A DNA stretch of 64,000 nucleotides from positions 933,478 to 997,477 of the forward strand of contig NZ_KE150421.1 of NCBI RefSeq assembly GCF_000411295.1, written 5' to 3'. The notes below the pieces were generated by a model. The model did no database searches and was not told the origin of the DNA. It saw only the letters and a program-made list of their open reading frames with translations. Numbering within the stretch: the first letter of the stretch is position 1; each line of letters begins with the position of its first letter. This DNA is from Paenisporosarcina sp. HGH0030 (lineage in GTDB: Bacteria; Bacillota; Bacilli; Bacillales_A; Planococcaceae). Shown here in pieces: positions 48,248 through 62,075 of this stretch. Both the position numbers and the translations under genes were made by a program.

Positions 48248-48637
48248 CTAGTTGATGTTTAATATGATTGTTTCAGTATGGCCATTCCATTCTATTGTCA
48301 CTACAACCTCAGCTTCTTCAATGATTTTGGCATTTGTTGGGTTAGCCTCTTTACTAGCTTTAAACGTTCCGTTTTCCTCCAATGTTAAACCGCTTCCACC
48401 AAAACCTCCTGCATTAGTCTCAACGTTATATTCAATTTCTCCAACTGAATTTACATCGTTTCCTTTATATTGAAGTTTTAATTCCTGTTCTTCCCATTCA
48501 TCTTCGGTTTGAGTAACCTTTAATTCTCCCGTCCAATTATCAGACTCTCCAGAGAAATCGAAAGTTTTATAGCCACATGCTGATAGCAAAAATGATACCA
48601 ATACCAGCAACAATAATGCTGAAATCCTTCGACGCAT
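48248..48637 (-). CDS. Small lipoprotein of unknown function
   Basis: About 129 aa. Signal peptide of type II (ISALLLLVLVSFLLSAC) with Cys as lipid anchor, then a short acidic, Thr/Glu-rich beta-type domain. No family recognised. ATG 48637 follows AAGGGGATG. First accessory gene of the repeat-rich region. Confidence 0.75.
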   Translation of the reverse strand: MRRRISALLLLVLVSFLLSACGYKTFDFSGESDNWTGELKVTQTEDEWEEQELKLQYKGNDVNSVGEIEYNVETNAGGFGGSGLTLEENGTFKASKEANPTNAKIIEEAEVVVTIEWNGHTETIILNIN

Positions 48638-48768
48638 AATACATCCCCTTTTGCTTTTAAAATACAAATTTATACCCCAAGCCCGATGATCAGTTAATCA
48701 CCACTTAAAAACTTCAATGATTTACATATATTAACTTATTGAATACCATTCCAATAATCCCTTCATAT

Positions 48769-48802
48769 AGAACTAAACTTCCTCGTTTTTAGAATAAGAA
48801 AT
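48769..48802 (+). repeat. Lone degenerate L box
   Basis: AGAACTAAACTTCCTCG and AGAATAAGAA resemble the L box and the first spacer bases of full copies (GAACTAAACTGCCTCG). Confidence 0.4.
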
Positions 48803-48938
48803 GCAAAGGTATGAATTAACTTGTATTCCATTAATAATTTATGCTGGCTATGTTTTTGGGGAGAATGATTACTAATTTAGTGATAATTAAAACAAGGAGA
48901 AATACAAATCAACTTAATCCAGTATTAAAATAATTTCT

Positions 48939-49028
48939 TATTGAACTAATCGGTTCAGTGAGTGACAAAAAAAGAGCTGTTTAGGCAGCTCTTTAATCTT
49001 TAAAAAAGCTTTCGTTAGTTCAACAACT
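48939..49028 (+). repeat. L-R repeat, copy 2
   Basis: Degenerate L box TTGAACTAATCGGTTCAG. The central hairpin is perfect, AAAGAGCTG and CAGCTCTTT, followed on the minus strand by TTTTTTTG. R box GCTTTCGTTAGTTCAAC. Confidence 0.7.
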
Positions 49029-49078
49029 CATAAATCATAAGGTTGAAATACAAGCGATTTTCCTTGAGCATTTTGTCA

Positions 49079-49102
49079 CGATTGAAAAGCACCCGTCCAC
49101 AA
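49079..49102 (+). repeat. Lone R box
   Basis: GATTGAAAAGCACCCGTC matches the R core (AAAGCACCCGT). It is preceded by TTGAGCATTTTGTCA, which also occurs in copy 10. Confidence 0.5.
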
Positions 49103-49136
49103 TAGTTATCTTCCAGATATAACGGGCTCTAGGAAT

Positions 49137-49190
49137 AGAAAAAACCCCGTATAGGTCACTTTTTTAAAGTGTCCACTATTAGGGGTTCAG
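49137..49190. other. Nested hairpin, possible IS-end remnant
   Basis: AACCCC at the left pairs with GGGGTT at the right, and CACTTT/AAAGTG pairs inside. This resembles the terminal hairpins of some insertion sequences, but no transposase fragment is present. Confidence 0.3.
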
Positions 49191-49220
49191 TTCATGGTTC
49201 AGTAATCATCTCTGTTATTT

Positions 49221-49688
49221 CTATTCAATAAAGTTTATTTTATTTTCCTGACACCATTCAATCGCAATTTGTTTAAAACACTCATCACGGTATGAATACC
49301 ATTGATCTTCTATTTCAAAATCTATTATTTTGTCCTTAAACCTTCTAAAGGCACCCTTACCCTTAATGGCCCTTAATAAAGATTCCTGCATCCGTTGATC
49401 CCTTACTTTTAAACTGAAGTTTTCCATTATTTCATATTCATTCACTGCATATTTAGTAGGTAACTCTATATAGTTTTCAAAGTTTTTAACCACATCAATT
49501 GCATTCATTCTATTTTCTTGTTCCCATTCAGGTAAATGATCAAATGGTTCTTCGTCTTCGGCAGCTCTCAAGTCCTCAGATGTAACTATAATTATTTCAC
49601 CCGTATTAATATTTAGTAATGAACGTGACTCTTCAAACTGTACTTCCATTTCCTCAATTATATCTTTTAGACTGACTTGTATATTCAT
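49221..49688 (-). CDS. UPF0158 family protein
   Basis: 155-aa acidic protein with the family pattern LNINTGEIIIVTSEDLRAAE, IELPTKYAVNEYEIMENFSL, KGKGAFRRFKDKI and QIAIEWCQENKI. Function unknown; such proteins turn up in accessory loci. ATG 49688 follows AAAGGTGAT. The 141 bp to its right hold the upstream side of repeat copy 3. Confidence 0.85.
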   Translation of the reverse strand: MNIQVSLKDIIEEMEVQFEESRSLLNINTGEIIIVTSEDLRAAEDEEPFDHLPEWEQENRMNAIDVVKNFENYIELPTKYAVNEYEIMENFSLKVRDQRMQESLLRAIKGKGAFRRFKDKIIDFEIEDQWYSYRDECFKQIAIEWCQENKINFIE

Positions 49689-49828
49689 TATTAGATCACC
49701 TTTAGAAGTTTTTTACTATCCCGATAGTTAAACAAAGACTGTTTATTTATTATTCGTTACTGATTCATTTATTTTATTAACTTACAACCTCCTTGATTCC
49801 ATTTCTTTAATCATAATACATATCTCCT

Positions 49829-49905
49829 TGTTTAACTAACCTGCTTAAGTTACTTGAATAAGAAAAAGCGATCCTTCTTTATTGAAGAATCGCACCCGTT
49901 AGTGA
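49829..49905 (+). repeat. L-R repeat, copy 3 with terminator-like core
   Basis: L box TTTAACTAACCTGCTTAAG, R end GCACCCGTTAGTG. The core hairpin GCGATCCTTC / GAAGAATCGC is followed on the minus strand by TTTTTCTTATT. Confidence 0.75.
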
Positions 49906-50046
49906 AAAGTCGACCTAAAGTCTAAATTTATTCAATAGTATATGAGTGAAATCAATAATGATAGAAGTATAACGATTATCGTACCGAAAATTCAAATCGC
50001 TTTTTGAAATGCACCCTCCGAAGATAATGCAAAACTACAAAATTTT
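49906..50046. other. Gap after the anti-sigma gene, possible degraded membrane peptide
   Basis: On the minus strand a hydrophobic stretch (IFGTIIVILLSLLISLIYY) is preceded in frame by a TGA and no start codon. It may be a relic; not a callable gene. Confidence 0.3.
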
Positions 50047-50805
50047 TCAATATCCATTGTCTTCTTCTATTTTTTCATGTAACCCACCAACATCACGGAT
50101 TTCAAACTTTCCAATTTTGCCTTCTTCCGAGAGAATTGCCATCCCTTGTATCTCGTGACGTGAAACCTCCCCAACGTTATTTTTATATTCCACCTGAGCA
50201 GTAAAGTCATAATTTTTTGGTGCAGACTTGTTTTCACTTTGAGTCACTTGTATATCGCTAACTTTCATTTGATAACGCACTTCCTCTAGTTCCGTACCAA
50301 AGTGGAACTGGAAAGCCTGATTAGTAGGAATAAGGTGTTCATAAGCATAGTCCATAAAGTAAGGTCCATATGTTTTTTTCACTAATTCCTCGTAGGCAAG
50401 GGATTCAGGAGAATCTGCTGGAAGTCCGAAGCCTGCCGAACCTTCTGGCAAGCTTTGACTAATTTCATCCATTTTTTTATTAATGTTTTTTTGGATAAGA
50501 ATATATTCCTCATTAGGAACCGTAAATTCGGATTCAAGAATTGCCTGGACCGCTGCCTTATTTTTATCTTCATCAGCAATTTCAGCAGCCAAATGATTAG
50601 TAGGATTTTCAGTTTTAACTAAACTAAAAATGAGGAAACAAGCCACTGCAACCATTGCTATAGAAATGAAAATCGGCGCTACATATCGTTTTTCCCTTCC
50701 TACTTTATCTTGCAGTTTTAGTAGACTATTTCTTCGTGCTTCATTGGAACGGTCAATATGCTGCATTTTCTGGAAATGTTCATCAAATTCTTTTGATGGA
50801 TCCAT
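50047..50805 (-). CDS. Putative anti-sigma factor, membrane anchored
   Basis: About 252 aa: a short cytoplasmic N-terminal region (MDPSKEFDEHFQKMQHIDRS), one membrane helix (YVAPIFISIAMVAVACFLIF) and an extracytoplasmic domain of about 180 aa. The gene overlaps the 3' end of an ECF sigma gene by 23 bp, the usual layout for a cognate anti-sigma factor. ATG 50805 follows GGAAGG. No zinc-binding ZAS motif is visible, so assignment rests on topology and position. Confidence 0.75.
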   Translation of the reverse strand: MDPSKEFDEHFQKMQHIDRSNEARRNSLLKLQDKVGREKRYVAPIFISIAMVAVACFLIFSLVKTENPTNHLAAEIADEDKNKAAVQAILESEFTVPNEEYILIQKNINKKMDEISQSLPEGSAGFGLPADSPESLAYEELVKKTYGPYFMDYAYEHLIPTNQAFQFHFGTELEEVRYQMKVSDIQVTQSENKSAPKNYDFTAQVEYKNNVGEVSRHEIQGMAILSEEGKIGKFEIRDVGGLHEKIEEDNGY

Positions 50806-51310
50806 TAATAAAACCTTCCTTTCCATGAAATTCTTCTCTTAATGCCTCAAATCCCCGGGTCATTTTTGTTTTCACCTTTGCTTCTGTCCAACCCAATATA
50901 TAGGCCGTCTCTTTAATGGAACATTCATTCACTTTTCTGAGAATCAGCACATCTCTATAATCTTTCTTCAGTCTGCTTAAGGCGGCGTGTAACTTTGCAA
51001 GATCCTCGTTCGTTTCTGCAGTGCCCTCAGGCGTAGGGGTCTTATGGTCGATGTCGTTTTCATTTCCCCATTTAAAAAACTGGATGATTCTTTTTCTTCT
51101 AAAGTAATCATAGGTAACATTTCGTGCTATTTTCAAAAGCCATGTTAAGACTGAAGCTCGATTGTTAAAATGGTTCAGGCTCTTTATCGCTTTACAAAAC
51201 GTTTCCTGCGTCAAATCTTCAGCGGTTTCTTTATGACGTACCAGCAGATAAATAAAGTGATAAACCTTGTCACTATAATCTAAATACAACCGTTCTACAT
51301 CCTCTTCCAT
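50783..51310 (-). CDS. ECF sigma factor
   Basis: About 175 aa. Region 2 (VYHFIYLLVRHKETAEDLTQ, then LLKIARNVTYDYFRRKRI) and region 4 (RLKKDYRDVLILRKVNECSI, ETAYILGWTEAKVKTKMTRG) are both complete. ATG 51310 is favoured by GAGGAG; the open frame begins at TTG 51319. It directs a stress regulon that cannot be named from sequence. Pairs with the anti-sigma gene downstream. Confidence 0.9.
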   Translation of the reverse strand: MEEDVERLYLDYSDKVYHFIYLLVRHKETAEDLTQETFCKAIKSLNHFNNRASVLTWLLKIARNVTYDYFRRKRIIQFFKWGNENDIDHKTPTPEGTAETNEDLAKLHAALSRLKKDYRDVLILRKVNECSIKETAYILGWTEAKVKTKMTRGFEALREEFHGKEGFINGSIKRI

Positions 51311-51473
51311 AAATTTCAACTCCTCTTAACAATCATAGACGAACGAAAGAATGAAAAGTATCGTTATCATAATCAAAATGTAAGTGCTTTTATCAACATG
51401 GAGAACTAATGAATGTAGATATCAAACACAAAAACACCCAACTAAGAGGTCAGGTGTTTGCACTAAATATAAT

Positions 51474-51505
51474 AAGGGTTCTTCAACTAAAGCACCCGTT
51501 AGTAA
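51474..51505 (+). repeat. Lone R box (copy 4)
   Basis: TTCTTCAACTAAAGCACCCG then TTAGT, an almost consensus R box. A hairpin AAACACC/GGTGTTT lies 20 bp to its left (51430-51460) in the place where the core terminator would be. Confidence 0.65.
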
Positions 51506-51550
51506 AAAAGAATTCTAATATGAACACTCACAGTGCAAGAATTAAAAAAC

Positions 51551-51574
51551 GGGCGAAATCAAAGTTTCGTCCGC
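51551..51574 (-). terminator. Terminator after the 51.6-kb gene remnant
   Basis: CGGACGAAA and TTTCGCCCG arms, then TTTTTT, on the minus strand. Confidence 0.75.
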
Positions 51575-51585
51575 AGAAGTTTTAC

Positions 51586-51699
51586 TTATTTATTGTATAA
51601 TTCATCATATCTCTTAAAGAACACAGCCATCCACGTTTCAACTCACTTTGGAATGCGTATTCTAGAACCGCCCCCTGAAAGTTTTATACCTTCTTCCAC
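51586..51699 (-). pseudogene. C-terminal gene remnant with in-frame TGA
   Basis: The minus frame reads EEGIKLSGGGSRIRIPK, then TGA at 51645-51643 where Trp (TGG) would fit, then VETWMAVFFKRYDELYNK and TAA. Its 5' side stops exactly in the L box of copy 5, where the frame is closed by a stop. A terminator is still in place downstream. It looks like the tail of a deleted gene; family unknown. Confidence 0.5.
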
Positions 51700-51771
51700 T
51701 AAACTTCCCCTTTAGTTGAAGAAGAAAAAGGCTTAACTCCTTATTCAAGTAAAACAGCCGTAAGTTGAACA
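51691..51771 (+). repeat. L-R repeat, copy 5
   Basis: L box CCACTAAACTTCCCCTTTAG, core AAGGCTTAACTCCTTATTCA, R box AAACAGCCGTAAGTTGAAC. The minus strand has GGCT/AGCC pairing and TTTTTCTTC. Confidence 0.65.
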
Positions 51772-51777
51772 ACACAA

Positions 51778-51806
51778 AAAAACCGACATTTTATTGTCGG
51801 TTTCTG
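51778..51806 (-). terminator. Terminator after the ArsR-type gene
   Basis: ACCGACA and TGTCGGT arms with TTTTTT on the minus strand. Confidence 0.8.
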
Positions 51807-51824
51807 AATTAATTTTATATAACC

Positions 51825-52178
51825 TTATTTACTATCTGTTTTTACTACTTTAAAACCATTTACACCTTCATTTTCAACCACATGTTTAAGAATTGACAAT
51901 TTGTTATTCCAAAACTGTTCATAATATGAAAGCCATAGTTTTAATTCTGCTAAGGGTTCTGGTTGCAACTGATAAATTTTTTCCCTACCAACTTTTTTTC
52001 CGCTTACTAAATTTGCTTCTGAAAGGATAAATAGATGTTTTGCAACGGCTGTCCGACTAATTGGAAAATGAGATGTTATTTCTGAGATTGGTAATTCCTT
52101 GTTAGCAAGTAATCGAAGTACCTCTCTTCTAGTTGGATCAGCAATAGCTTGAAATACATCATGCTTTGCTGCTGTCAT
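51825..52178 (-). CDS. ArsR-family transcriptional regulator
   Basis: 117-aa winged-helix protein: AIADPTRREVLRLLANKELP, recognition region HFPISRTAVAKHLFILSEAN. No metal-binding ELCVCDL motif, so it belongs to the group paired with SRPBCC proteins. Its ATG follows directly after the SRPBCC stop codon, so the two form a unit. Confidence 0.9.
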   Translation of the reverse strand: MTAAKHDVFQAIADPTRREVLRLLANKELPISEITSHFPISRTAVAKHLFILSEANLVSGKKVGREKIYQLQPEPLAELKLWLSYYEQFWNNKLSILKHVVENEGVNGFKVVKTDSK

Positions 52179-52598
52179 TTATCCTTCAACTACCTTTCGA
52201 AGTCGTTCATTTACAATTCCGACCCAGCCATTGTCCATTCTGTCACGAATAATAGAACTTTTCTCGTTCGCTTTTGGAAGAACAGTATCAGGAGATTTCC
52301 AACCACTGTGTATAAGTGTAAACTCCGTCTTCTCATCCAGCTCTTTTAAAAGAAACGTAACCACCCAACCTTCTGTATCCCATGAAAAAGAAACTTTGGT
52401 TGGTTCATCAATTTCTAATACTTTGCAAGGAGATGGACCGAATGGGGATTGTATATGAAATTCATGTCCTACTTTAGGTTCAAAATCGTTTTGCATAAAC
52501 CAAATTGCAATTCCCTCCGAAGTAGAAACCGTTTCCCACACTTTTTGTATAGGTGCTTCAAAAGTAACAATCTGCTTAATATCTTGTATTGTTTCCAA
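52179..52598 (-). CDS. SRPBCC (AHSA1-type) family protein
   Basis: 139-aa START-like fold: [20 protein letters not shown], then FWMQ-type and [22 protein letters not shown], ending [19 protein letters not shown]. Such proteins bind hydrophobic ligands in a deep pocket; ligand unknown. It begins at TTG 52598 after AAGGAGA. Cotranscribed with the ArsR gene, which probably regulates it. Confidence 0.85.
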
Positions 52599-52716
52599 AA
52601 TTATATTCTCCTTTATTATTAAATAAAACCTTTTGGTTATATATCAGATAATATAACACCTTTTGGTTTTATGTCAAAGAGGATTTCTCATATTTATTCT
52701 TCTTTTCAATAATTTT

Positions 52717-52855
52717 TATTCAACTAACCTGCCCCGTTAGTTTAAGTGTAACATTTCACAATATATTGCCGAAATCTACTTGATGTTTTGGACGTAAAAA
52801 TAGACCATCGAAATGATGGTCTTGTTTAAACTAAAGCACCCGTAAGTTGAATAAG
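52717..52855 (+). repeat. L-R repeat, copy 6 with insert
   Basis: Consensus L box (TTCAACTAACCTGCCCCG, TTAGTTTAAG) at 52717-52746, R box AAACTAAAGCACCCGTAAG at 52824-52855. The core is longer by about 50 bp than usual and has a perfect hairpin GACCATC/GATGGTC (52803-52821) followed on the minus strand by TATTTTT. Confidence 0.75.
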
Positions 52856-52867
52856 CAGTAAATCAAT

Positions 52868-52993
52868 TTAGTTTTTCCACCAGTTCGGATATGAACTCCA
52901 CCATTCTTCTGCTTCTTCTAAAGAATAATAAATACGAGTCCTATTAATAGGCGAGCTTCCACCTATTTTTGTTTTGTTTGTGATAACTACACA
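52868..52993 (-). pseudogene. Small gene remnant lacking a start
   Basis: The minus frame reads NKTKIGGSSPINRTRIYYSL, then EEAEEWWSSYPNWWKN and TAA. Codon use and composition look real, but upstream it meets TAA with no ATG/GTG/TTG. Its stop is 13 bp from the R box of copy 6, the spacing seen for intact genes here. Family unknown. Confidence 0.45.
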
Positions 52994-53061
52994 TTAAAAC
53001 GATTCTTGAATATGCTAGGTAAGAATGTAAATTATTACTCGAACTTGGAAAGAGGTATATT

Positions 53062-53880
53062 ATGATTCAACTATCGGGGATGCCCTTTCAACAAAGTGAC
53101 ATGTGGTCGTCTGGTAGTATTGAAAGTATGATCATTCAACGGATGATTGAAGATACAGTCGTTTACTCGTATCAATCCATAGGTGAATTATCGTTTGAGC
53201 TTAAGTTACGAAAAAATATCATATTAAGTGCAAGAGCCATGAATCAAAGCAATGTGCGGTTTGAAACACTTGAAAATTCCCGTGGTAATCCTCAGTACTG
53301 GCATATGACGAGTACCGGCGGATTCCTGCTGCGGCATGGAGTAAAACCATCAGACGCGATTCAAGATATCTACATGAACAGTTCACAATATGCTTTTGAA
53401 TGTGCTACGGCAATGATCATTATCTATTACCATGCGGTCCTAAACACTATGGGAGAATCCTTATTTAATCAATTATTTCAAAACATCTATTTATACAGCT
53501 GGCAAAATGATTCTGAACTCCAAATAAAACCGTATTATACAGACCATTTTTTGCCTGGAGATGTCGTATATTTTGAAAATCCGGACTTCGACCCGAGAAC
53601 CCCTCACTGGAGAGGGGAGAATGCCGTTGTTTTAGGAGATGGTACGTATTTTGGTCATGGGTTAGGAATAATGACAGCTGAACAAATGATTCATGCTCTG
53701 AATCAAACCAGAATGCCAGGGGCAAATCAATCAGCCTATCTGACAAATGTAGTTGCAAGACCATCTTTTAAACATTTGGCGAAACTTTCGATGTCGCAAC
53801 CAGGTTATTTGATTCAAAATTACCAACATATCGTCCATCATAACGAAAGTTCGATTCCAATTGATCGATACATGTTCTAA
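53062..53880 (+). CDS. tgl: Protein-glutamine gamma-glutamyltransferase (spore transglutaminase)
   Basis: 272-aa Tgl homologue that cross-links spore coat proteins through Gln-Lys bonds. Catalytic Cys in YAFECATAMIIIYYHAVL, plus DPRTPHWRGENAVVLGDG and YFGHGLGIM match the family. ATG 53062 follows GAAAGAGGT. It lies among repeats and is one of few plus-strand genes here; the repeat on its left is upstream of it, unlike the pattern for minus genes. Confidence 0.92.
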   Translation: MIQLSGMPFQQSDMWSSGSIESMIIQRMIEDTVVYSYQSIGELSFELKLRKNIILSARAMNQSNVRFETLENSRGNPQYWHMTSTGGFLLRHGVKPSDAIQDIYMNSSQYAFECATAMIIIYYHAVLNTMGESLFNQLFQNIYLYSWQNDSELQIKPYYTDHFLPGDVVYFENPDFDPRTPHWRGENAVVLGDGTYFGHGLGIMTAEQMIHALNQTRMPGANQSAYLTNVVARPSFKHLAKLSMSQPGYLIQNYQHIVHHNESSIPIDRYMF

Positions 53881-53967
53881 TCGTAATCGTATCGTTCCCT
53901 GAGCCATACTGTGAATAAAAAACACAATAACAATTGTCACATTTCAAAAAAGTTATGTCTCACTACT

Positions 53968-54117
53968 TTACAAACTTTGAGAAAAAGTTTTCTGCCGAGA
54001 AGCTAATTCCACCATTTTATCCGCCATTATCCCGTAACCCCTGCCTACTTCCGGTCTTTGTGAAGAAAAAATCACTGCGTAATAAGGTGGTTCAGGAGTT
54101 TTTGCAATTCCACTCAT
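53968..54117 (-). pseudogene. Truncated antibiotic biosynthesis monooxygenase family gene
   Basis: A 49-codon minus frame reads MSGIAKTPEPPYYAVIFSSQ then RPEVGRGYGIMADKMVELAS, which is the N-terminal half of a common ABM-fold protein of about 105 aa. It stops at TAA; an adjacent frame (FLKVCKVVRH) resembles the expected continuation and then decays. The C-terminal half is absent. Confidence 0.6.
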
Positions 54118-54184
54118 ATGTAAGTCCCACTAAAAAATCACTTTTGAAACAATATTAGAAATTTAAACATGATTTCAGCTCACC

Positions 54185-54258
54185 TTGTTCAACTAACCTG
54201 CCCCGTTAGTTGAATAAGAAATGGTCTTAATCCTTATTGAAGTAAAGCACGCGTTAAC
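54185..54258 (+). repeat. L-R repeat, copy 7
   Basis: Consensus L box (arms TTCAACTAAC and GTTAGTTGAA, loop CTGCCCC), R box GAAGTAAAGCACGCGTTAAC. It ends 20 bp from the stop of the methyltransferase gene. Confidence 0.8.
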
Positions 54259-54278
54259 AGGCATGTTAGGATATTTGT

Positions 54279-55010
54279 TTACTTCACACAAGAAAAAGCC
54301 AATACAACTGGAATTCGCTGTCTTCTTACAAATTCTTCTTCGCTACTGAAATGTTCACGTTTTGGTGTACCTTCACGTAAATCTAGCACTGTAAAGCCAA
54401 CTTGTCTAAGTGCTATAAAATAATTTTCAATTGTACGATGATACTTAACCACTATTTGATCAATCCAAGGCTCTTTTCTTTCACCCTCACGGAAATAGTC
54501 ATCAACAATCCAATTACCGCGTTTGTCCCCAGATTGCTTACTAACAAATGATGAAGTTGTTAGTGGATGCTGGATACTAAAAGCAAATCTTCCGTTTCCT
54601 TTAAGTGTTTTATGAACATCTTGAAACAGGCGGTTAATGTCTGAAACATAATGGAATGCAAATCGAGATGTTACAATATCAAATGCCTCTGTCGGATAGT
54701 CATAAGATTCCATTGTTTCAAAGTGTATTGTCCCGTTTGGTTCAAGTACGTTAGAGCGTGCCACTTCCACCATTTGTTCCGAACCTTCAACTCCTGTGTA
54801 GTTTTTTGCCCCTAACTGTAAGAGTTCTTTTCCGAACGAGGCATCACCACATCCTAAATCTAAGACGCTTTTATCTTGAATGTTCCCAATTAATTCATAG
54901 ATAATTGGACCTTCAATGGCATTATTTGGACTATCTTGTCTGTTTCTTCTTTTCATGTAATTTGAAAAAAAATCTGTTTGATCGTAAACATTTGATCCTC
55001 TGAATTCCAT
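54279..55010 (-). CDS. Class I SAM-dependent methyltransferase
   Basis: 243 aa. SAM-binding motif I VLDLGCGDASFGKELLQLGA, motif II region GVEGSEQMVEVAR, and TSRFAFHYVSDINRLFQDVH. Substrate unknown; small-molecule methylation is usual for this group. Single gene between copies 7 and 8. Confidence 0.9.
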   Translation of the reverse strand: MEFRGSNVYDQTDFFSNYMKRRNRQDSPNNAIEGPIIYELIGNIQDKSVLDLGCGDASFGKELLQLGAKNYTGVEGSEQMVEVARSNVLEPNGTIHFETMESYDYPTEAFDIVTSRFAFHYVSDINRLFQDVHKTLKGNGRFAFSIQHPLTTSSFVSKQSGDKRGNWIVDDYFREGERKEPWIDQIVVKYHRTIENYFIALRQVGFTVLDLREGTPKREHFSSEEEFVRRQRIPVVLAFSCVK

Positions 55011-55168
55011 CGAAACGTCTCCTCATCTAATTAATTCTCTTTTACTAAACTAATTTGAGATGTCAGGCGATTCATCGCTAAATGCACAAATTAATGTATT
55101 CTATCACATGTTTATTAGAATAGACAAGCTTACTTTCCAGAAAAAATTCAACTAATATTAACTACTCT

Positions 55169-55250
55169 TTATTGAACTAAACTGCCTCGTTAGTTCAATA
55201 AAAAAGTGACTTAACCTCGACTTGAGGTAAAGCACCCACCGTTTGCTTAA
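55169..55250 (+). repeat. L-R repeat, copy 8
   Basis: L box TTGAACTAAACTGCCTCG, GTTAGTTCAA, core stem ACCTC/GAGGT, partial R box GTAAAGCACCC. The minus strand has TTTTTTATT after the stem. It abuts the SUFU gene stop. Confidence 0.75.
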
Positions 55251-55817
55251 TTAGACGATACTCTCTCTGTAAAAATCCACTAAATCAGGGTCCTTTTCCT
55301 CTAAAATGTCTTCAAAGCTATCCCAACCCTGCTTACTTATAAACCCAGCTTCCTGTGATGTAATTGGAATAAGCCAGGTCATTAGAATTGAAGAGTTTGT
55401 ATCAATATCGTAGCTATGGAAGCTATCATGAAAATAAACTGGAATGCTGGAATATAAAGCTTCAAGGTTCGAATCATCAAATAATGAACCGTACGGACCT
55501 ATTACATCCCCTCTCAAGAGAGCAGAGTGATCTTTAAGAATGGACATACCAACCTGGTGGAGAATACCTGGTATGCCTTCATCCCCAAATTCCGAATAAG
55601 AAACCATTATTAACTCTTGACGAATCTCCATTTCATTTTCAGGCGATGCCAAAATATGATTGCTCAATCCTAACGTGGAGTAGGTCGTAGTTTTTTGGAA
55701 GGGACCTTTGCTAAATTTAACAATTTGGAATGGTAATTCTGCACTTTCCGCATCATCCCCAAACCCATAAAGAATTTCACCTAAATTATCTTCTAAAAAC
55801 TCAATAAATGTTTTCAT
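55251..55817 (-). CDS. Suppressor-of-fused (SUFU) domain protein
   Basis: About 188 aa with the bacterial SUFU pattern TTTYSTLGLSNHIL, ELIMVSYSEFGDEG and LMTWLIPITSQEAGFI. Bacterial SUFU proteins are often immunity proteins in polymorphic toxin systems, but no toxin gene is adjacent. ATG 55817 has GGAGGTA; the longer frame to 55871 is not supported. Confidence 0.82.
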   Translation of the reverse strand: MKTFIEFLEDNLGEILYGFGDDAESAELPFQIVKFSKGPFQKTTTYSTLGLSNHILASPENEMEIRQELIMVSYSEFGDEGIPGILHQVGMSILKDHSALLRGDVIGPYGSLFDDSNLEALYSSIPVYFHDSFHSYDIDTNSSILMTWLIPITSQEAGFISKQGWDSFEDILEEKDPDLVDFYRESIV

Positions 55818-55898
55818 TTTTACCTCCAGAATAAATAATTTTGGATTAATTCTGTCTAGCACTAATTCCACTGTGATTCAATTTTATCATTTTAATTC

Positions 55899-55932
55899 TT
55901 ATTATATTAACCTGCCATGTTAGTTGAATAAG
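55899..55932 (+). repeat. Lone L box (copy 9)
   Basis: ATATTAACCTGCCATGTTAG then TTGAATAAGG. It ends 1 bp from the stop of the next minus gene; the R half is missing. Confidence 0.65.
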
Positions 55933-55933
55933 G

Positions 55934-56380
55934 TTATTTCATTTTTTCTAAAATCAGATAATCCTTTGTTTTTAAGATTGAAATAGAATTTTTATTTGTA
56001 AAATTAATTAAATCTATAAATACGTTGTCGGGTTCGAAATTAACAACATGAATGTTAAATCCCTTTTTGATTTTTATAATAGCACCTTTGTTTGTCCAAC
56101 CTAATCGTTTAAATTTTATCTTAATTATTTGATTGGGATATATTACTTTTTTATAGAGAGGAATTGCTAAGAATAATGGTTGATACGTCAGAAAACCGTC
56201 ATTTATTTCAAACTTGTATCGAATAAAGAATGATACAACAAGAAAAACAAGAACTACTATTTGAAAATATAATAACCCTTTGGAAAAATTAAATCCTGTA
56301 ATATTTGAAATTAATAAACCCATCATCATCGCAAATAAAAATCCTATAACTCCTCGCTGACCTTTTGCATTATATACCAA
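55934..56380 (-). CDS. Membrane protein with PH-like soluble domain
   Basis: 148 aa. Two N-terminal helices (VIGFLFAMMMGLLISNITGF and YFQIVVLVFLVVSFFI) are followed by a beta-rich basic domain (NQIIKIKFKRLGWTNKGAII) resembling bacterial PH domains. No specific function recognised. No repeat separates it from the phosphatase gene upstream. Confidence 0.65.
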   Translation of the reverse strand: MVYNAKGQRGVIGFLFAMMMGLLISNITGFNFSKGLLYFQIVVLVFLVVSFFIRYKFEINDGFLTYQPLFLAIPLYKKVIYPNQIIKIKFKRLGWTNKGAIIKIKKGFNIHVVNFEPDNVFIDLINFTNKNSISILKTKDYLILEKMK

Positions 56381-56432
56381 CTTTATTCCCTCCTCTTATT
56401 TGATTTAAAATAAACTTACAAATTCATTTAAC

Positions 56433-56996
56433 TCACCATATTCTTTGAACGTTCAGTAATTCCTGTTCATTGAATTCCATTCTATAAATATCAGGTTTTG
56501 ATGTGCTATGTAAAAAATTTAAGTCATAGGTGCTATCGAAATATCCCATCATCAAGGTCATAATAGCCCCGTGAGTTCCTATAACTACTTTTTTATTTCT
56601 CAAAGTATCTAATAGTTCTTTTAAAACTTTTATTGCTCTTTCTTGACAATCAGCATTTGATTCTCCTCCCTCTAAGGAGAAATTCGAATCGAAAAACGAC
56701 TTTTCCAAAATCTGAACCAATTCCTTATCAGCTAATCTTTTGATTTCAGAAGAAAATATCCTCTCTTTTAAATCCTCAAAGACTAAAACTTCTTGCCCTA
56801 TTTGTTGAGCTATCTTTTCAACAGTCAATATTGAACGTAGGTATGGGCTTGAAACAACTGTATCGATTTTTTCATCTTTCAATATGTCAGTTACTCGTTG
56901 AGCATCTAAATAACCTTTTTCGGTTAATCCTCTTGTTCTATCATTTCCTTCTTTTGGCGACTCACCGTGTCTCACCATATAAAAAACTGTACTCAA
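56433..56996 (-). CDS. Histidine phosphatase family protein
   Basis: About 187 aa, phosphoglycerate-mutase-like. Catalytic motif YMVRHGESPKEGNDR, Glu in SLEGGESNADCQERA and second His in VVIGTHGAIMTL. Substrate unknown. TTG 56996 is the likely start because a G-run is 6 bases upstream. A second, distinct enzyme of this superfamily occurs at 15.7 kb. Confidence 0.85.
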   Translation of the reverse strand: MSTVFYMVRHGESPKEGNDRTRGLTEKGYLDAQRVTDILKDEKIDTVVSSPYLRSILTVEKIAQQIGQEVLVFEDLKERIFSSEIKRLADKELVQILEKSFFDSNFSLEGGESNADCQERAIKVLKELLDTLRNKKVVIGTHGAIMTLMMGYFDSTYDLNFLHSTSKPDIYRMEFNEQELLNVQRIW

Positions 56997-57031
56997 TATA
57001 TTCCCCCCCAATAAGTTTCTCTTATTTTTCC

Positions 57032-57125
57032 TTCTTCAACTCTACTGCTACGTTAGTTTATTAAGAAAAAGAGTTGCTTTAAGCTGACCGATGTTCTTCA
57101 ACTAAAGCACCCGTTACTTTAAGTA
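57032..57125 (+). repeat. L-R repeat, copy 10a (full length)
   Basis: L box TTCAACTCTACTGCTACG and GTTAGTTTATTAAG, core AGAGTTGCTTTAAGCTGACC, near-consensus R box CTTCAACTAAAGCACCCG. Together with copies 1 and 12 it defines the long subtype. Confidence 0.78.
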
Positions 57126-57153
57126 CATTTCTTATTATTCCGTGAAATGGATA

Positions 57154-58350
57154 CTAATAAATTTCTGTTCGATACTTTTCGATGACTGCTGTTGTCAAAA
57201 TCCCTGTTTTATAAAAATGACTCACATAAACACTTACCATCATTTCATTTTCTTCCGTAATCTCCATATTCCATAATACGCGATTGATAATGCCTGCTAG
57301 TTCTTCAGGATTCGCATACATTGTATTCCATGCCCGGACTTGCAATTCTAATTCATCACTCAATGCGGCTACTTCGAGTTGTTCTGTTGGCACCGGTTCA
57401 CTAAACTGTGCATACGGATTTTCGTATACGTTCGTGTAAATGAACTTGATTGGATTGTACTCATCTAACTCATACGTAAAGCATTCATTCCCAACTGTAA
57501 CAATTATATTATTCTTTCCAAATTCAATCTTTCCGTTTTCTAATACCATATTTTCCGAAAAGGATTGAATAGAACACTTCACATCTGGTGTAATCAAAAA
57601 ATAGCTATATTCCAGATTCAGCTGTGTAATGTACTCTGCAAGTGATGTCTTTTCAATCCTACCTTCATCTCTCAATGTTGCATAAGTAATCGGACGATAA
57701 TAATACTGGACATCCATCTCTTTAATTTCGATTGTCCACTCTGCATCAGGACATTCAAACAGCACACGGAAAGCAAACCCATCATCTGTTTTCTGTAACT
57801 CATTGTAAATGAACCATTGCCCAACTTGGATTGGTTCATCTGTTTCTTCTGCTATAACATTTTGAAAAATGAAATGAATAAGTGATTTGGATGAAAACCC
57901 ACCCTCTGTATTGACGTATAGATGAAGCGTTTTATCCTCTCGTTCAATTCGTTCAATGGTTGAATCATGCAAACTTTCCGCAAAGACCTCTTGAACTGTA
58001 GTTGGTAAATAGGTAACAGTCTGCTTTGTCTGTTCATATGCAGCATCTAAAATTTGTTCAAATTCCTTGTCTGCTTCTCGCATCCATTGCAAATAATCAT
58101 CACGTACTTGTTTTGGTAATGTCGGTTGATTTAAAGTAGCATTTTCCACGAATGGAATGAAACGGCTTGGCAAGACTGCCAGCAATCTCGCTTTTACGTC
58201 TTCAAGTTCTTCTTTTAAACGCGCAATGAGATCGTACCTTTCTTCTATTGCTTCTTTTCGTGCTACTTCCCAATTTTGGTCGGATTCATGAATTGGCAGT
58301 AAATTACACATTAAAAATCTTTCTTTAACTTCTTTCGATATACTCCACAT
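57154..58350 (-). CDS. DUF4085-like protein
   Basis: 398-aa soluble, acidic protein. It begins MWSISKEVKERFLMCNLLPI and has a long N-terminal helical part (residues 30-120) followed by mixed alpha/beta sequence. The N-terminus resembles DUF4085 proteins of Bacillales. Function unknown. The gene stop is 28 bp from the R box of copy 10a and no partner gene is evident. Confidence 0.72.
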   Translation of the reverse strand: MWSISKEVKERFLMCNLLPIHESDQNWEVARKEAIEERYDLIARLKEELEDVKARLLAVLPSRFIPFVENATLNQPTLPKQVRDDYLQWMREADKEFEQILDAAYEQTKQTVTYLPTTVQEVFAESLHDSTIERIEREDKTLHLYVNTEGGFSSKSLIHFIFQNVIAEETDEPIQVGQWFIYNELQKTDDGFAFRVLFECPDAEWTIEIKEMDVQYYYRPITYATLRDEGRIEKTSLAEYITQLNLEYSYFLITPDVKCSIQSFSENMVLENGKIEFGKNNIIVTVGNECFTYELDEYNPIKFIYTNVYENPYAQFSEPVPTEQLEVAALSDELELQVRAWNTMYANPEELAGIINRVLWNMEITEENEMMVSVYVSHFYKTGILTTAVIEKYRTEIY

Positions 58351-58454
58351 AACTTCACCTCAAATAGTTTTTTTAGTGGGTTCTTTTTAGTAATCTAACC
58401 AATTATGTTGGGTCAATGTTTCAATTATTACTCTGTGGTAATGACGATTGTTTT

Positions 58455-58515
58455 ATTTACACTAACCTGCTTCGTTAGATCAATAAGGAAAATGGCTGCT
58501 TGAGCATCTTGTCAA
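58455..58515 (+). repeat. L box with core, copy 11 (R lost)
   Basis: ACACTAACCTGCTTCGTTAG, AATAAGGAAAATGGCTGCTT and GAGCATCTTGTCA. The R box is not recognisable. It ends 4 bp from the stop of the next gene. Confidence 0.65.
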
Positions 58516-58519
58516 AAAT

Positions 58520-58711
58520 TTACTCATCTTCTTTTTGATGATTAGGTAAAAATAATGCAATCAAAATAATTAGTCCAATTAATAACTGAAAACTAGGGAG
58601 ACCAGATAGAAACCCTTTGTTGTAACTATCAATAATTCTCATTGCCTGAAAAGAAATAAAAATTATCATAAGTATTATTAACGCAATTCGATACTTAAAT
58701 TTAATACTCAT
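58520..58711 (-). CDS. 63-aa membrane protein
   Basis: Two hydrophobic segments (YRIALIILMIIFISFQAM and FQLLIGLIILIALFLP) with a charged tail NHQKEDE. Ribosome site AAAGGGAG upstream of ATG 58711. No family recognised. It is a single small gene between copies 11 and 12. Confidence 0.6.
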   Translation of the reverse strand: MSIKFKYRIALIILMIIFISFQAMRIIDSYNKGFLSGLPSFQLLIGLIILIALFLPNHQKEDE

Positions 58712-58735
58712 TTTTTAACTCCCTTTCTAAATACT

Positions 58736-58823
58736 GTTCAAAACTGCCCCGATAATTCAAGTAGGAAAAGAGTTGCCTTCAGCAGCCCAATGATATTCAA
58801 CTAAAGCATTCGACTCCAAGTAG
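58736..58823 (+). repeat. L-R repeat, copy 12 (full length)
   Basis: L box TTCAAAACTGCCCCGATAAT, core AGAGTTGCCTTCAGCAGCCC, R box TTCAACTAAAGCATTCGACT. Long subtype. Confidence 0.72.
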
Positions 58824-58871
58824 ACATAACACCCGGATTGGGAAGTATTCGATTTCATTACTCCACAAGAA

Positions 58872-58895
58872 AAGCTGCCCTTTAAAGGCAGCTGG
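58872..58895. terminator. Stand-alone hairpin
   Basis: AGCTGCC and GGCAGCT arms around TTTAAA, A-rich before. It resembles the core of the long repeats and may be a separated core. Confidence 0.5.
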
Positions 58896-58940
58896 CTTCA
58901 CATTTGTATATATACCAACTGACATAATGTTAAATAAAAA

Positions 58941-58969
58941 AATCGTCCGTTCAATCGGACGATTTTTTC
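58941..58969 (-). terminator. Terminator after the lipoprotein gene
   Basis: AAAATCGTCCG and CGGACGATTTT arms; T-run on the minus strand. Confidence 0.85.
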
Positions 58970-59505
58970 TTATTGTGCTACTTCGCTGGCAATGCTTGAT
59001 TCAGCTAAGCCAACTTCTTTAAGTACCTTACTTAATTCAGCGTCAGCCTCTTCAAATTTTGCATTTGCCTCATCTAATACAACGTCACCTTCCGCAGCTA
59101 ATGCGTCTGCTTTCATTGTATAAGCTTCTTGTAATTTGTTTAATGCTGAGTCAATTGTTTCTTGATGATCTTTTAATTCAGCCGGAACTTCTAATTCTTC
59201 TACTTTAACCGCAGTATTTGCAGCAGCTGTTTTTGCAGCATCCCGCATTTTTTTAAGCTCAGCAGCTTCTGGAGGTGCTTCTAAATCTATATTTTCATAA
59301 GCATTTAGTTCTGCATCTACAGCATTAATAGATTGAGAGATTGATAAGTAAAACTTCATCATATCTCCAGCTGGGTTCGCTTTTTCTTTAGATGTAGTTT
59401 CTTCAGATTTAGTTCCTTCAGTCGTTGTAACTTTTTTCTCTTCTTCGTCTTCAGTACAAGCTGCAAGAACTAAAGAAAGTGAAGCAATAATAGTTTTTTC
59501 ATCAT
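58970..59505 (-). pseudogene. Lipoprotein gene with frameshift at its start codon
   Basis: About 175 codons encode a lipoprotein-like signal (IIASLSLVLAAC), a Thr/Glu/Lys-rich linker and a helical domain (EAAELKKMRDAAKTAAAN, TMKADALAAEGDVVLDEANA). The ribosome site AAAGGAG fits ATG 59505 or 59502, but these are one frame off because the following A-tract has six A. Seven A would give MKKTIIASLS, a normal signal peptide. The only in-frame start is TTG 59509, 1 base from the ribosome site. It is a frameshifted gene or a homopolymer error. Confidence 0.65.
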
Positions 59506-59618
59506 TCAATCTCCTTTAACCTTGGGAATATTTAGTTATATTACCACGGATAAACTCACATGTAAATTAATTACCAAATAGTTCGCCATTTAGTAACGTT
59601 TTATTCAAAGATTTTATA

Positions 59619-59650
59619 AAGCCCGATTCAATCACTGAACCGAAGGGTTT
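59619..59650 (-). terminator. Possible terminator after the 37-aa frame
   Basis: Imperfect stem between CCCGATTCA and TGAACCGAAGGG, with TTTT beyond it on the plus strand rather than the minus; weak. Confidence 0.3.
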
Positions 59651-59691
59651 TGTTCAGAAAACCAGATTAATTTGTACTCTACAATTCTGAG

Positions 59692-59805
59692 TTACATCAT
59701 TCCACTACCATCCATAACGTTTACTAAGGCAATGTTGTCTCCAGTAATTTCAAAAGCTTCTTCTTTATCTGTATCGTTAACTAAATCAATAATGTATTCA
59801 GACAT
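59692..59805 (-). CDS. 37-aa acidic peptide, uncertain
   Basis: MSEYIIDLVNDTDKEEAFEI then TGDNIALVNVMDGSGMM. The acidic first half with a hydrophobic, Gly-containing end looks designed rather than random and recalls precursor-type peptides, but no modification enzyme is near. Weak GGGG before ATG. It may also be a remnant. Confidence 0.4.
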   Translation of the reverse strand: MSEYIIDLVNDTDKEEAFEITGDNIALVNVMDGSGMM

Positions 59806-59849
59806 AATTAACCCCGATCTGTTCTTGTATTTATTTTTTCCCCAATTTT

Positions 59850-59915
59850 ATTGTTCAACTAACCTGCCCCGTTAGTTGAAGTAGAAAGAGTGCTTAAACA
59901 ACCCAAGCAATTCAC
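59850..59915 (+). repeat. L box with core, copy 13
   Basis: Consensus L box (arms TTCAACTAAC and GTTAGTTGAA, loop CTGCCCC), then AGAGTGCTTAAACAACCC. R box not recognisable; a plus-strand hydrolase gene begins 63 bp on. Confidence 0.72.
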
Positions 59916-59977
59916 CTATGTTTCCCTAGATGAGTATCTTATTGTTGATGCCACTTTAATTAAACGGAGGGAACAAC

Positions 59978-60760
59978 ATGGGATACTTTGTTACTGTAGA
60001 ACCTGGTGTAAAGATATATGTAGAGGATGTAAACCCGGAGGGAAATAAAACAATACTATTTATACATGGTTGGCCATTAAACCATAAGCAGTATGAATAT
60101 CAGTTTGATGTTCTTCCAGCAATGGGATATCGATGTATAGGCATCGACTGGAGGGGGTTCGGTAATTCGGATAAACCATTCCATGGCTACAACTTTGACA
60201 GATTGGCAGATGATATCCATGCAGTAGTAGTCGCGTTGCAGTTAAAAGACTTCACACTAGCTGGACACTCTACAGGAGGGGCAATCTCGATTCGATATAT
60301 GGCTCGACACCAAGGTTATGGAGTATCCAAACTTGTCCTCATAGACGCGCAATCTCCGTATAGTGTTCAAGAAGAAGTTGCAAATATGTTCATTTCAGGA
60401 TCACTTAATGATCGACCTAAAATGTTGCAGGGATTAAATGATCTCTTCTTCTTCCAGTATCTTACCACCCCATTATCGGACTGGTTTTTTCAGCTAGGAT
60501 TACAGGCAGCTGGTTGGTCGACTGTAGCAGTCATGAAGACACTAAGAGATGAGAACGTGTACTATGATCTTGACAAAATACTAGTACCTACACTGATTAT
60601 TCACGGAATACATGATAAAATTGTTCCGTTTGATAAAGCTCAGGAAACAAATACGCTAATAAAAAATTCACTGCTTGTTCCATTTCAATACAGCGGTCAT
60701 GGTCCTTTTTGGGAAGAACGTGAGAAGTTTAACCAGCTATTGATGCAATTTATTGGCTAA
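59978..60760 (+). CDS. Alpha/beta hydrolase
   Basis: 260-aa enzyme resembling non-heme haloperoxidase/esterase types: LFIHGWPLNHKQYEYQ (oxyanion), nucleophile LAGHSTGGAISIRY, Asp in HGIHDKIVPFD and His in YSGHGPFWEE. Substrate unknown. Ribosome site GGAGGGAA before ATG 59978. Own terminator follows. Confidence 0.9.
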   Translation: MGYFVTVEPGVKIYVEDVNPEGNKTILFIHGWPLNHKQYEYQFDVLPAMGYRCIGIDWRGFGNSDKPFHGYNFDRLADDIHAVVVALQLKDFTLAGHSTGGAISIRYMARHQGYGVSKLVLIDAQSPYSVQEEVANMFISGSLNDRPKMLQGLNDLFFFQYLTTPLSDWFFQLGLQAAGWSTVAVMKTLRDENVYYDLDKILVPTLIIHGIHDKIVPFDKAQETNTLIKNSLLVPFQYSGHGPFWEEREKFNQLLMQFIG

Positions 60761-60797
60761 TAGTTCACTTCAGCTAACGGATAACGATTTTTTTTAA

Positions 60798-60822
60798 CCG
60801 CTCATGTCATGGGCGGTTTTCC
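60798..60822 (+). terminator. Terminator after the hydrolase gene
   Basis: AACCGCTC and GGGCGGTT arms, then TTTCC. Confidence 0.7.
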
Positions 60823-60912
60823 TTTGTAAAAATCAACAATAAACGATAACAGAGCCTTTAATTAAATCTTTCTAATTCTCTCCTCCTTTTTATTCACCAT
60901 CGATTGTTGTTC

Positions 60913-60946
60913 CTTCTTTATCTGCCCTGTTAGTTGAATAAGCACC
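60913..60946 (+). repeat. Partial L box, copy 14
   Basis: ATCTGCCCTGTTAGTTGAAT and AAGC match the right half of the L box. No R box. Confidence 0.55.
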
Positions 60947-61059
60947 TTATCTTTTAATACACATTATGGTCGAACTGCGTACTAAGACCTTCACTCCCAT
61001 AAGACAAGGTCCACAAAACATGGTGTACCCATATATTGATAAAAAGGAGTGAAAGCAAA

Positions 61060-61485
61060 TTGAATCAAAATTCTGTGCAGCCTTCTGCAAACATGGAAGT
61101 ATTAAACGACATTTTGAAAGCAATTAATGGTGAATATACAGCAATTGCCTGCTATGAATTATTAGCGAACCAGGCTCAGAACGCCGAAATAAAAAATCGT
61201 ATTCTTGAAATCAGAAATGATGAAATCAGACACTATGAAACCTTTTGGCAACTTTATATTTCTTTGACGGGAAAACAACCTACTCCACAAATCACAAAAC
61301 AATGTTCTGCAGATTATAAAAGTGGGATACTTGCTGCATTCATAGATGAACAGGAGACTGTAGACTTCTATCACGATATAGCGCGAAGTACTAATAATCC
61401 TGTTATTAAAGATGCTTTCACGCAAGCTTCTGCTGATGAACAAAATCATGCGGTTTGGTTTTTATATTTCATGAATCATCATTAA
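61060..61485 (+). CDS. Ferritin-like domain protein
   Basis: 141-aa helical protein with the ferritin-like pattern: INGEYTAIACYELLANQAQN, ILEIRNDEIRHYETFWQLYI, FIDEQETVDFYHDIA and ASADEQNHAVWFLYF, giving paired Glu and E..H ligands for a di-metal site. Likely rubrerythrin-type oxidative stress or iron handling; the role is inferred from the fold. TTG 61060 is 8 bases after AAGGAGTG. Confidence 0.8.
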   Translation: MNQNSVQPSANMEVLNDILKAINGEYTAIACYELLANQAQNAEIKNRILEIRNDEIRHYETFWQLYISLTGKQPTPQITKQCSADYKSGILAAFIDEQETVDFYHDIARSTNNPVIKDAFTQASADEQNHAVWFLYFMNHH

Positions 61486-61493
61486 TTGTTTAG

Positions 61494-61521
61494 CAGCCGG
61501 CTATCACGTCGGCTTTTTTTC
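61494..61521 (+). terminator. Terminator after the ferritin-like gene
   Basis: AGCCG and CGGCT arms, then TTTTTTT. Confidence 0.75.
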
Positions 61522-61563
61522 TTGCACCTTATGTGTCAAATGCGACATAAAAACTCCCATTCT

Positions 61564-61649
61564 CTTCTTCAACTAAACTGCTGCGTTAGTTGAATAATAA
61601 AAATGCTTTGCATCTTTATTGAAGTAAAGCACTCCGTTAGTTCAACAAT
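61564..61649 (+). repeat. L-R repeat, copy 15
   Basis: L box TTCAACTAAACTGCTGCG, GTTAGTTGAATAA; core TGCTTT/AAAGCA pairing with TTTTTATTATT on the minus strand; R box GTAAAGCACTCCGTTAGTTC. It ends 11 bp from a minus-strand stop. Confidence 0.78.
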
Positions 61650-61659
61650 AACCCATCTT

Positions 61660-61773
61660 TTAGTTATCGGTTATTTTTGATTTATGAAACGTTAAAATTC
61701 TATTAACACTGCTACCTATATTTCCTATCCATGCCCCTAAAAAAGACACAAATGTGTTGAATATTAAAATCAT
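61660..61773 (-). CDS. 37-aa membrane peptide
   Basis: MILIFNTFVSFLGAWIGNIG then SSVNRILTFHKSKITDN: one hydrophobic helix and a basic tail. The stop is 11 bp from the R box of copy 15, as for larger genes here, which is the main reason to call it. Ribosome site weak (GGAAGAG). Could be a remnant. Confidence 0.45.
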   Translation of the reverse strand: MILIFNTFVSFLGAWIGNIGSSVNRILTFHKSKITDN

Positions 61774-61989
61774 TTACATCAGATACTCTTCCAGTTGGGT
61801 AAATGTATTGAATTACTTCAATTAGCAGGTACAGCCATTCGCCGTTCTAGTCTAGGCGGACATATAAATAACAGTGGGCATTCTTAATCTTGTGTCTATT
61901 GTTCATTTTTTCACGGTAGATGAAAGAAAGATTATCTTAATCATATAGGGATTTAAAAATATTATTGATTAACTTGTTAGGAATTGTTT
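61774..61989. other. Intergenic, no gene seen
   Basis: AT-rich sequence without repeats or convincing frames. Confidence 0.4.
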
Positions 61990-62070: not shown

Positions 62071-62075
62071 TATCT

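Follow-up and report, generated by a model that had tools for sequence, protein, structure and literature searches.

The 64,000 nucleotides of Paenisporosarcina sp. HGH0030 analyzed here (NZ_KE150421.1, positions 933,478-997,477; referred to as the window) contain a recurring pattern in which two types of short boxes, A and B, flank a variable core. Comparisons with related genomes make it highly probable that this chromosome has several arrays of an integron-like system of gene cassettes, and that part of the window belongs to one of them. The joint claim that directional sites delimit swappable cassettes and that a dedicated integrase recombines them is held with the same high confidence. 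According to this explanation, the sites would be recombined by a Xer-like tyrosine recombinase dedicated to them, whose gene is itself one of the units, with a B site on one side and an A site on the other; units would be excised as circles and inserted elsewhere. The core, which reaches from B to A and mostly measures about 50 or 60 bp, would be a small second type of unit, supplying a terminator after the preceding gene.

In gene orientation, which is the minus strand of the window, the A box reads AACTAAC-GGGGCAG-GTTAGTT (CTTATTgAACTAAC-GGGGCAG-GTTAGTTgAATAAG) and the B box AACTAAC-GGGTGC-TTTAGTT (TTCTTCAACTAAC-GGGTGC-TTTAGTT). The spacers measure 7 nt in A and 6 nt in B, with 30 and 24 distinct sequences, respectively, in the strain's own genome. 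Matches to one of the boxes were clustered along the chromosome. At a low threshold, 287 sites in the fetched regions pointed one way and 14 the other; at a higher threshold, with segments oriented by majority, the counts were 280 versus 9 in the own genome and 256 versus 6 in another genome of the same species (G089). The fetched clusters held 65 B-core-A pairs and none on the opposite strand of their own segment, and no site was scored in 866,687 bases of shuffled-letter DNA. The commonest successions were A to B long (89), B to A short (65), A to A long (47, without a core), B to B long (22) and B to A long (20). GC skew agreed with gene orientation in nine of eleven own segments, and in the complete G089 genome the A sites among the matches listed lie on the plus strand at 0.28-1.79 Mb and on the minus strand at 2.11-3.49 Mb, apart from a single one at 0.67 Mb. 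Judged by GC skew, the units thus appear to be read mostly with the replication fork. No Rfam family reached its gathering score within the window. The arms of single A sites showed no covariation, those of single B sites showed it at one of two positions among paired B sites (p = 0.027) and not in a wider set, and the left arm of B showed neither covariation nor complementarity with the right arm of the adjacent A.

That the boxes bound movable units is indicated by a comparison of the own genome with G089, in which blocks of at least 150 bp and at least 92% identity were considered. Of their ends, 72 of 116 were no more than 30 bp from a site of one or the other genome, compared with a random expectation of 5.7% for one genome and about 11.1% for either. 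When both genomes were pooled, 97 of 215 ends lay within 25 bp of a site, against 5-14 of 215 in ten nulls with sites shifted by 100-400 bp, and in comparisons with other genera 704 of 1695 ends were at sites (7.1% at random; integrase units included). Three array changes were bounded by sites at both ends in both genomes, namely own 1025054-1026218 = G089 1613740-1612575 (99.3%), own 1646108-1647922 = G089 2521837-2523652 (99.5%) and own 643131-643700 = G089 2133499-2132930 (97.2%). These moved segments of 0.57-1.8 kb, at 97.2-99.5% identity, comprise one or more cassettes each. A fourth segment (own 599865-600418 = G089 2465839-2465286, 99.6%) has a detected site at its 3' end only. Units vary between genomes in presence, copy number and array, and cassette copies inside the own genome also often end at sites. 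There, one and the same gene 3' end precedes B-core-A in one of its copies and has an A site directly behind it in another (1412155 versus 1635976), and an end common to two copies leads into B in the first and into A in the second (501532 versus 586730). An extra 82 bp, which G089 carries between GGGCAG copies at window 60914-60942, is not a typical core. Inserted cassettes were also looked for by split alignment in the fetched loci, which gave 38 cases, six of them within 30 bp of a site; of the remainder, 15 trace to one internally deleted integrase copy in locus L131.

The point of exchange could be narrowed down with homologous cassettes that have different neighbors (131 pairs for 5' ends and 172 for 3' ends, thinned from 244 and 384). 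Position -7 of the left arm was shared in 0.84 of the pairs at 3' ends and in 0.27 at 5' ends (random 0.29), and spacer positions 2 and 3 were shared in 0.78 and 0.83 at 5' ends and in 0.58 and 0.59 at 3' ends (random 0.62 and 0.65). This contrast between 5' and 3' ends reached p = 0.0003 and 5e-6 with pairs that are not fully independent. As position -7 is shared at 3' ends and the spacer at 5' ends, ancestry must switch between about -5 and +1. The alignments therefore place the breakpoint at AACTAAC-G, in about 7 bp around AAC^GG, with the spacer going with the downstream unit. Ordinary duplex recombination by tyrosine recombinases does not match unequal spacers with a one-sided switch; this combination would rather resemble integrons. 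Complementarity between the 5' and 3' arms across a cassette, with controls run on the own-genome set only, amounted there to 121 of 296 against 100.0 in shuffles (p = 0.008), and to 95 of 300 against 97.0 in the control. In a larger deduplicated set it was weak (z of 2.08 and 2.17, p about 0.02 each, at two positions), fell below expectation at positions 18-24 and was missing for long units starting at B.

The units themselves resemble gene cassettes. Among 290 units of 200-2500 bp from the own genome and G089, the median length was 584 bp and the median longest open reading frame (ORF) 141 aa. This ORF was in gene orientation in 244 units and opposite in 40, and six contained no ORF of 50 aa. 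ORFs in gene orientation started at a median of 85 nt from the center of the upstream site and stopped 53 nt from that of the downstream one. As in integrons, a unit mostly consists of one ORF and a site in the same orientation, with exchange at the sites.

The candidate for the recombinase is a protein of 279 aa. Of eight matches to the phage-integrase family in the own genome, two are copies of this Xer-like protein, residing in 99%-identical units inside own arrays; a decayed copy is found in the window's own array, and the host XerD (window 19037-20032) and XerC are separate proteins. Residues R138, K162, H228, R231, H254 and Y263 are invariant in 15 of 15 aligned homologs. The models for IntI were not reached (TIGR02249, 95.9 bits versus a cut-off of 265; NF011946, 67.6 versus 435). 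NF040815, a XerA-type model named 'site-specific tyrosine recombinase/integron integrase', was passed with 224.2 versus 220, as it also was by the host XerC and XerD (226.1 and 227.7). The nearest solved chains are XerC-like, XerD and XerA, with IntI4 weaker. A structural search with an AlphaFold model (predicted local distance difference test, pLDDT, 76.4; predicted template modeling score, pTM, 0.53) ranked XerA first and IntI4 twelfth and added little. By these profile and structure matches the recombinase is classed as Xer-like, not IntI.

The recombinase and the sites occur together in related genomes. One scan of genome contigs gave 122 stretches encoding a relative, of which 78 loci were kept, from Paenisporosarcina, Psychrobacillus, Viridibacillus, Lysinibacillus, Sporosarcina, Solibacillus, Bacillus, Neobacillus and others. 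At least three sites of this consensus were present at 64 of the 78 loci, with 534 sites opposite to the integrase and 22 along with it. A site lay 60-120 nt upstream of the integrase at 49 of 76 loci and 30-90 nt downstream at 30 of 74; every one of these sites is oriented opposite to the gene. Inspection of 39 loci by eye showed that, in most of 28 close homologs, the integrase unit starts at B and ends at A, and that its inner ends are alike within subgroups and its outer flanks differ. A survey of 250 genomes of the family, 67 of them with a homolog at E <= 1e-60 and with species that are not independent, found at least ten B-pattern hits in 25 of 37 genomes with a homolog of at least 75% identity, in none of the 30 whose homolog was more distant and in 6 of the 183 without a homolog (G089 included). 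A divergent integrase at locus L105 (65% identity) has around it nine copies, against 0.04 expected, of a shifted site, CAACAATCGGGAGC; they all lie on the same strand, which is that of the integrase and not the opposite one. The L105 locus suggests that integrase and site diverge together.

The cores between the boxes had been the subject of the sequence-only reading, which took the whole element for a repeat that delivers a Rho-independent terminator to the gene ending beside it. The five core hairpins quoted for this are all present, namely AAAGAGCTG/CAGCTCTTT (48971-48994), GCGATTCTTC/GAAGGATCGC (49868-49893), GACCATC/GATGGTC (52802-52822), ACCTC/GAGGT (about 55215-55232) and TGCTTT/AAAGCA (about 61600-61632), and the description of variable, interchangeable cores between conserved boxes was borne out. 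These cores look interchangeable because exchange occurs at the boxes, and part of their variety is due to several unrelated core families. A T tract after the stem on the minus strand had been claimed for each of the five; it is found in most cores, but in copy 8 (ACCTC/GAGGT) it lies several bases past the stem and makes a poor terminator. A terminator scan recovered three of the five hairpins on the minus strand (48994-48971, 49893-49868 and 52822-52802). Of the short B-core-A units in the fetched regions of the own genome, G089 and two congeners, 143 of 166 hold TTTT, a count in which copies shared by the own genome and G089 enter twice. Their lengths peak at 49-51 and 58-61 bp, and a few are near 40 or 105 bp. 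Most cores have a stem-loop with a T run on the strand of the preceding gene and are probably Rho-independent terminators, but terminator-like sites in 46800-64000 were not in excess (13 versus 9.9 +/- 3.4 in shuffles).

The further claim that pairing is kept as bases change, so that structure would be selected, held for the pairing and received small support for the selection. Folding was assessed with 72 aligned cores out of 83 distinct ones of the commonest length, the 11 left out belonging mostly to other families. The mean z-score against plain letter shuffles was -2.2, with 49 cores below -1, and in 63 of the 72 the 5' arm was paired at all positions or all but one, with G-U allowed. The covariation of the stems is nevertheless small, as pairing with the own 3' arm (5.375 pairs) only slightly exceeded that with permuted arms (5.239 +/- 0.043; highest of 500 permutations, 5.389), and stem changes were mostly one-sided or G-U.

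Several observations weigh against the cassette explanation, whose support is wholly comparative and read from sequences. In the comparison with G089, 44 of 116 block ends were more than 30 bp from any site, and a 5.7-kb difference (own 987534-993229) breaks within genes. In the window, a transglutaminase gene and three genes past 59.9 kb run opposite to the cassette orientation, and of the 11 segments, one (2180001) runs counter to a weak GC skew and the sites of another (C2 380001) are mixed. Fewer than ten pattern hits were found in 12 of the 37 genomes with a close homolog. No scored site occupied the upstream slot at 27 of 76 integrase loci, 14 of 78 loci had fewer than three sites, six of the loci had none, and two Halobacillus integrases (L108 and L109) had no clear repeat nearby. 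The arrays of G089 comprise 102 B-pattern hits, yet this genome has no homolog at E <= 1e-60; therefore, arrays can persist without the recombinase, or something else acts on them.

The latter finding would fit two other explanations. Ordinary homologous recombination might shuffle the boxes as short repeats, with a dedicated recombinase playing no part; the repeats are numerous and alike, and the arrays of G089 have no detected integrase. Random crossovers would, however, spread over the repeat of about 35 bp and not switch ancestry within about 7 bp (-5 to +1), the variable left arms and spacers leave only short stretches of identity, and the integrase tracks the sites, which makes this the least probable of the alternatives. 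Action of the host XerC and XerD, as with the dif modules of Acinetobacter plasmids, is also very unlikely. Both proteins are present, and G089, where no dedicated recombinase was detected, has arrays that differ from those of the own genome; against this stand the direct orientation of the sites and a dedicated recombinase that is embedded in the arrays and whose presence predicts the number of sites. As an explanation of the entire element, a dispersed intergenic repeat that delivers a terminator, with its structure under selection, is similarly hard to sustain and is kept only as the role of the core. It accounts for the folding of most cores, for the TTTT in 143 of 166 and for the position of cores after gene 3' ends. 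It does not account for 47 long A-to-A units without a core, for the boxes being the conserved part, or for gene units that move with breakpoints in the boxes; moreover, terminators are regionally no more frequent than in shuffles and covariation is small. In this respect the sequence-only reading has to be replaced, as the boxes behave as recombination sites and it is the gene cassette that moves.

An unlikely, though more serious, alternative is a true integron, in which B-core-A would be an attC site (R''-L''-variable tip-L'-R') folded from one strand and the integrase a divergent IntI. As this overlaps in part with the preferred explanation, the probabilities of the alternatives do not sum to one. 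A true integron would agree with the two inverted pairs of boxes that surround a variable hairpin, the spacer lengths of 6 and 7 nt, the one-sided crossover with unequal spacers and the slight excess of complementarity between cassette arms in the own genome (p = 0.008). The IntI models, however, remained far under their cut-offs (TIGR02249, 95.9 bits versus 265), the integrase forms a unit within the array, and arm complementarity is weak in the larger set and absent between the left arm of B and the right arm of the adjacent A. A classical attC as the whole answer was attractive from the B-core-A fold and was rejected because recombination also occurs at B sites and at lone A sites, and because the integrase is not IntI.

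Within the window, the repeats had been described for 48939-61649; they are found there, but the pattern extends beyond, with sites up to 63950 and, past the window, onward to about 103.8 kb in window numbering. All site elements are on the minus strand and are given here in window coordinates. An A-core-B element at 48150-48238 (copy 1; from the sequence and repeat families D1, D3, D6 and D15) precedes an ORF of 139 aa without a Pfam family at E <= 0.01 (48248-48667, minus; from the ORF list). The degenerate A site, core hairpin and B site of copy 2 (48939-49027; site and terminator scans) are followed by a UPF0158 ORF (49221-49688, minus), and the A-like site, core and B-like site of copy 3 (49830-49905), which are under the site-score cut-off, by two minus-strand ORFs for a sigma-70 family factor and an overlapping downstream gene (50047-51319). 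After a lone B site (51477-51511, score 31.3) and an A-core-B element at 51690-51773 (site scan, centers 51707 and 51756; block boundary versus G089 at 51690), two minus-strand ORFs encode an ArsR-type regulator and an AHSA1-domain protein (51825-52598). Among ten window proteins scanned with PADLOC, the ArsR protein was the only one to match, to Csa3/CARF models and via a region including its helix-turn-helix. Copy 6, with an A site, a long core and a B site (52715-52855; site and terminator scans), is followed by the transglutaminase gene mentioned above (TGL, PF20085; 53062-53880, plus), which lies within the array.

Further on, the site scan detected an A site (center 54201) with a core and degenerate B (54184-54260) before a methyltransferase ORF (54279-55010, minus), and copy 8, an A site (center 55185) with a core and degenerate B (55168-55242; also from the sequence), before an ORF with a SUFU domain (55251-55871, minus). 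A lone A site (55898-55932, score 36.8) precedes an ORF of 148 aa without a Pfam family at the same threshold (55934-56380, minus; from the ORF list), which is followed by a histidine phosphatase ORF (56433-57011, minus), an A-core-B element (57031-57126; site scan, centers 57048 and 57109) and a DUF4085 ORF (57154-58350, minus); the assignments of all named ORFs are from Pfam. Next are an A site (58453-58487; site scan), a degenerate A-core-B-like element (58730-58816; repeat families and site scan), a lone A site (59850-59884, score 51.0), the A-like site at which G089 has its GGGCAG-bounded extra 82 bp (60914-60942) and copy 15, with A, core and a second site (61564-61649; repeat families and site scan). 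The last sites of the window are a B site that coincides with a block end versus G089 (62523-62557; site scan), A sites at 62960-62994 (score 41.0) and 63775-63809 (score 40.3), and an A site at 63916-63950, detected by the site scan, whose right half is replaced by an end resembling that of an IS110-family element, as seen in comparison with an insert in G089. This right half is perhaps a remnant of an IS110-family insert.

Identical inserts of 1751 bp that encode an IS110-family transposase (PF01548, PF02371) are present at L153:14893-16643 and at G089 C1:2158018-2159768. In G089 this insert follows directly on the GGGGCAG spacer of two A sites, both of which the own genome has intact. Far from the array, a solitary cassette-like unit is located between conserved genes (window 15684-16400), with a B-like site at 16383, a histidine-phosphatase-like ORF and an A-like site at 15701. 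It is also present in G089 and was not found at the same place in G003, G004, G005 and G006; a 76% homolog is found among such sites in G003. No clean empty site of this cassette was found, the relatives being too different at that place. Nearby, at about 15561-15676, lies a different dispersed repeat, roughly 115 bp long, for which the congener G003 has more than 20 matches.

If the cassette explanation is true, many Bacillales would possess their own cassette system, to which Paenisporosarcina, Psychrobacillus, Viridibacillus, Neobacillus and relatives would owe part of their accessory genome; it would also be a directly testable example of gene capture that evolved convergently from a Xer recombinase. 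A bolder version, held tentatively and at somewhat short of an even chance, is that of a second, independently arisen integron. Here, a Xer-derived integrase would travel as one cassette of its own system, and chromosome stretches in many Bacillales would be split into exchangeable units, tens to hundreds of them. Units would be joined at AAC^GG by an exchange that is one-sided (single-strand) and tolerates unequal spacers, terminator mini-cassettes would insulate genes, and integrase clades and site consensus would have co-diverged.

No earlier account of this Bacillales cassette system was found in the available parts of the Creative Commons-licensed literature, which is no proof of novelty. 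The available part of the IntegronFinder 2.0 paper describes integrons as extremely rare in Firmicutes, with one complete integron in Limnochorda pilosa and a few clusters of attC sites lacking integrases (CALINs) (PMC9024848), and a review, in the part available, counts Firmicutes among the phyla with integrons (PMC8618304). Members of IS1111 target attC sites, as stated in the accessible portion of another source (PMC11187229), to which the IS110-family insert at an A site is a counterpart as far as that portion goes.

Apart from such reports, dispersed terminator-bearing intergenic repeats are known as the repetitive extragenic palindromic (REP), miniature inverted-repeat transposable element (MITE) and bcr types. 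The elements described here share with them the many intergenic hairpin copies, but differ in that the gene units between the copies move. Dif modules have sites in alternating inverted orientation with XerC and XerD half-sites. As far as the partially available sources describe them, those of Acinetobacter plasmids, on which XerC/XerD act, are alike in having genes between short Xer-type sites that shuffle; the present system is, in contrast, chromosomal, has sites in direct orientation (287 versus 14) and carries a dedicated recombinase in its arrays. The orientation of integron cassettes goes with the replichore, as does that of the arrays here, and further common features are arrays of short cassettes in the same orientation, exchanged at inverted-box sites, and a tyrosine recombinase gene divergent from the neighboring cassette. 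Unlike in integrons, the integrase is Xer-like and itself a unit of the array, several arrays are present, the A and B sites are simple, and terminator mini-units occur. Instead of a single attI platform, sites run on both sides of the integrase, and in contrast to attC, where recombination is confined to R', breakpoints are also found at B sites and lone A sites.

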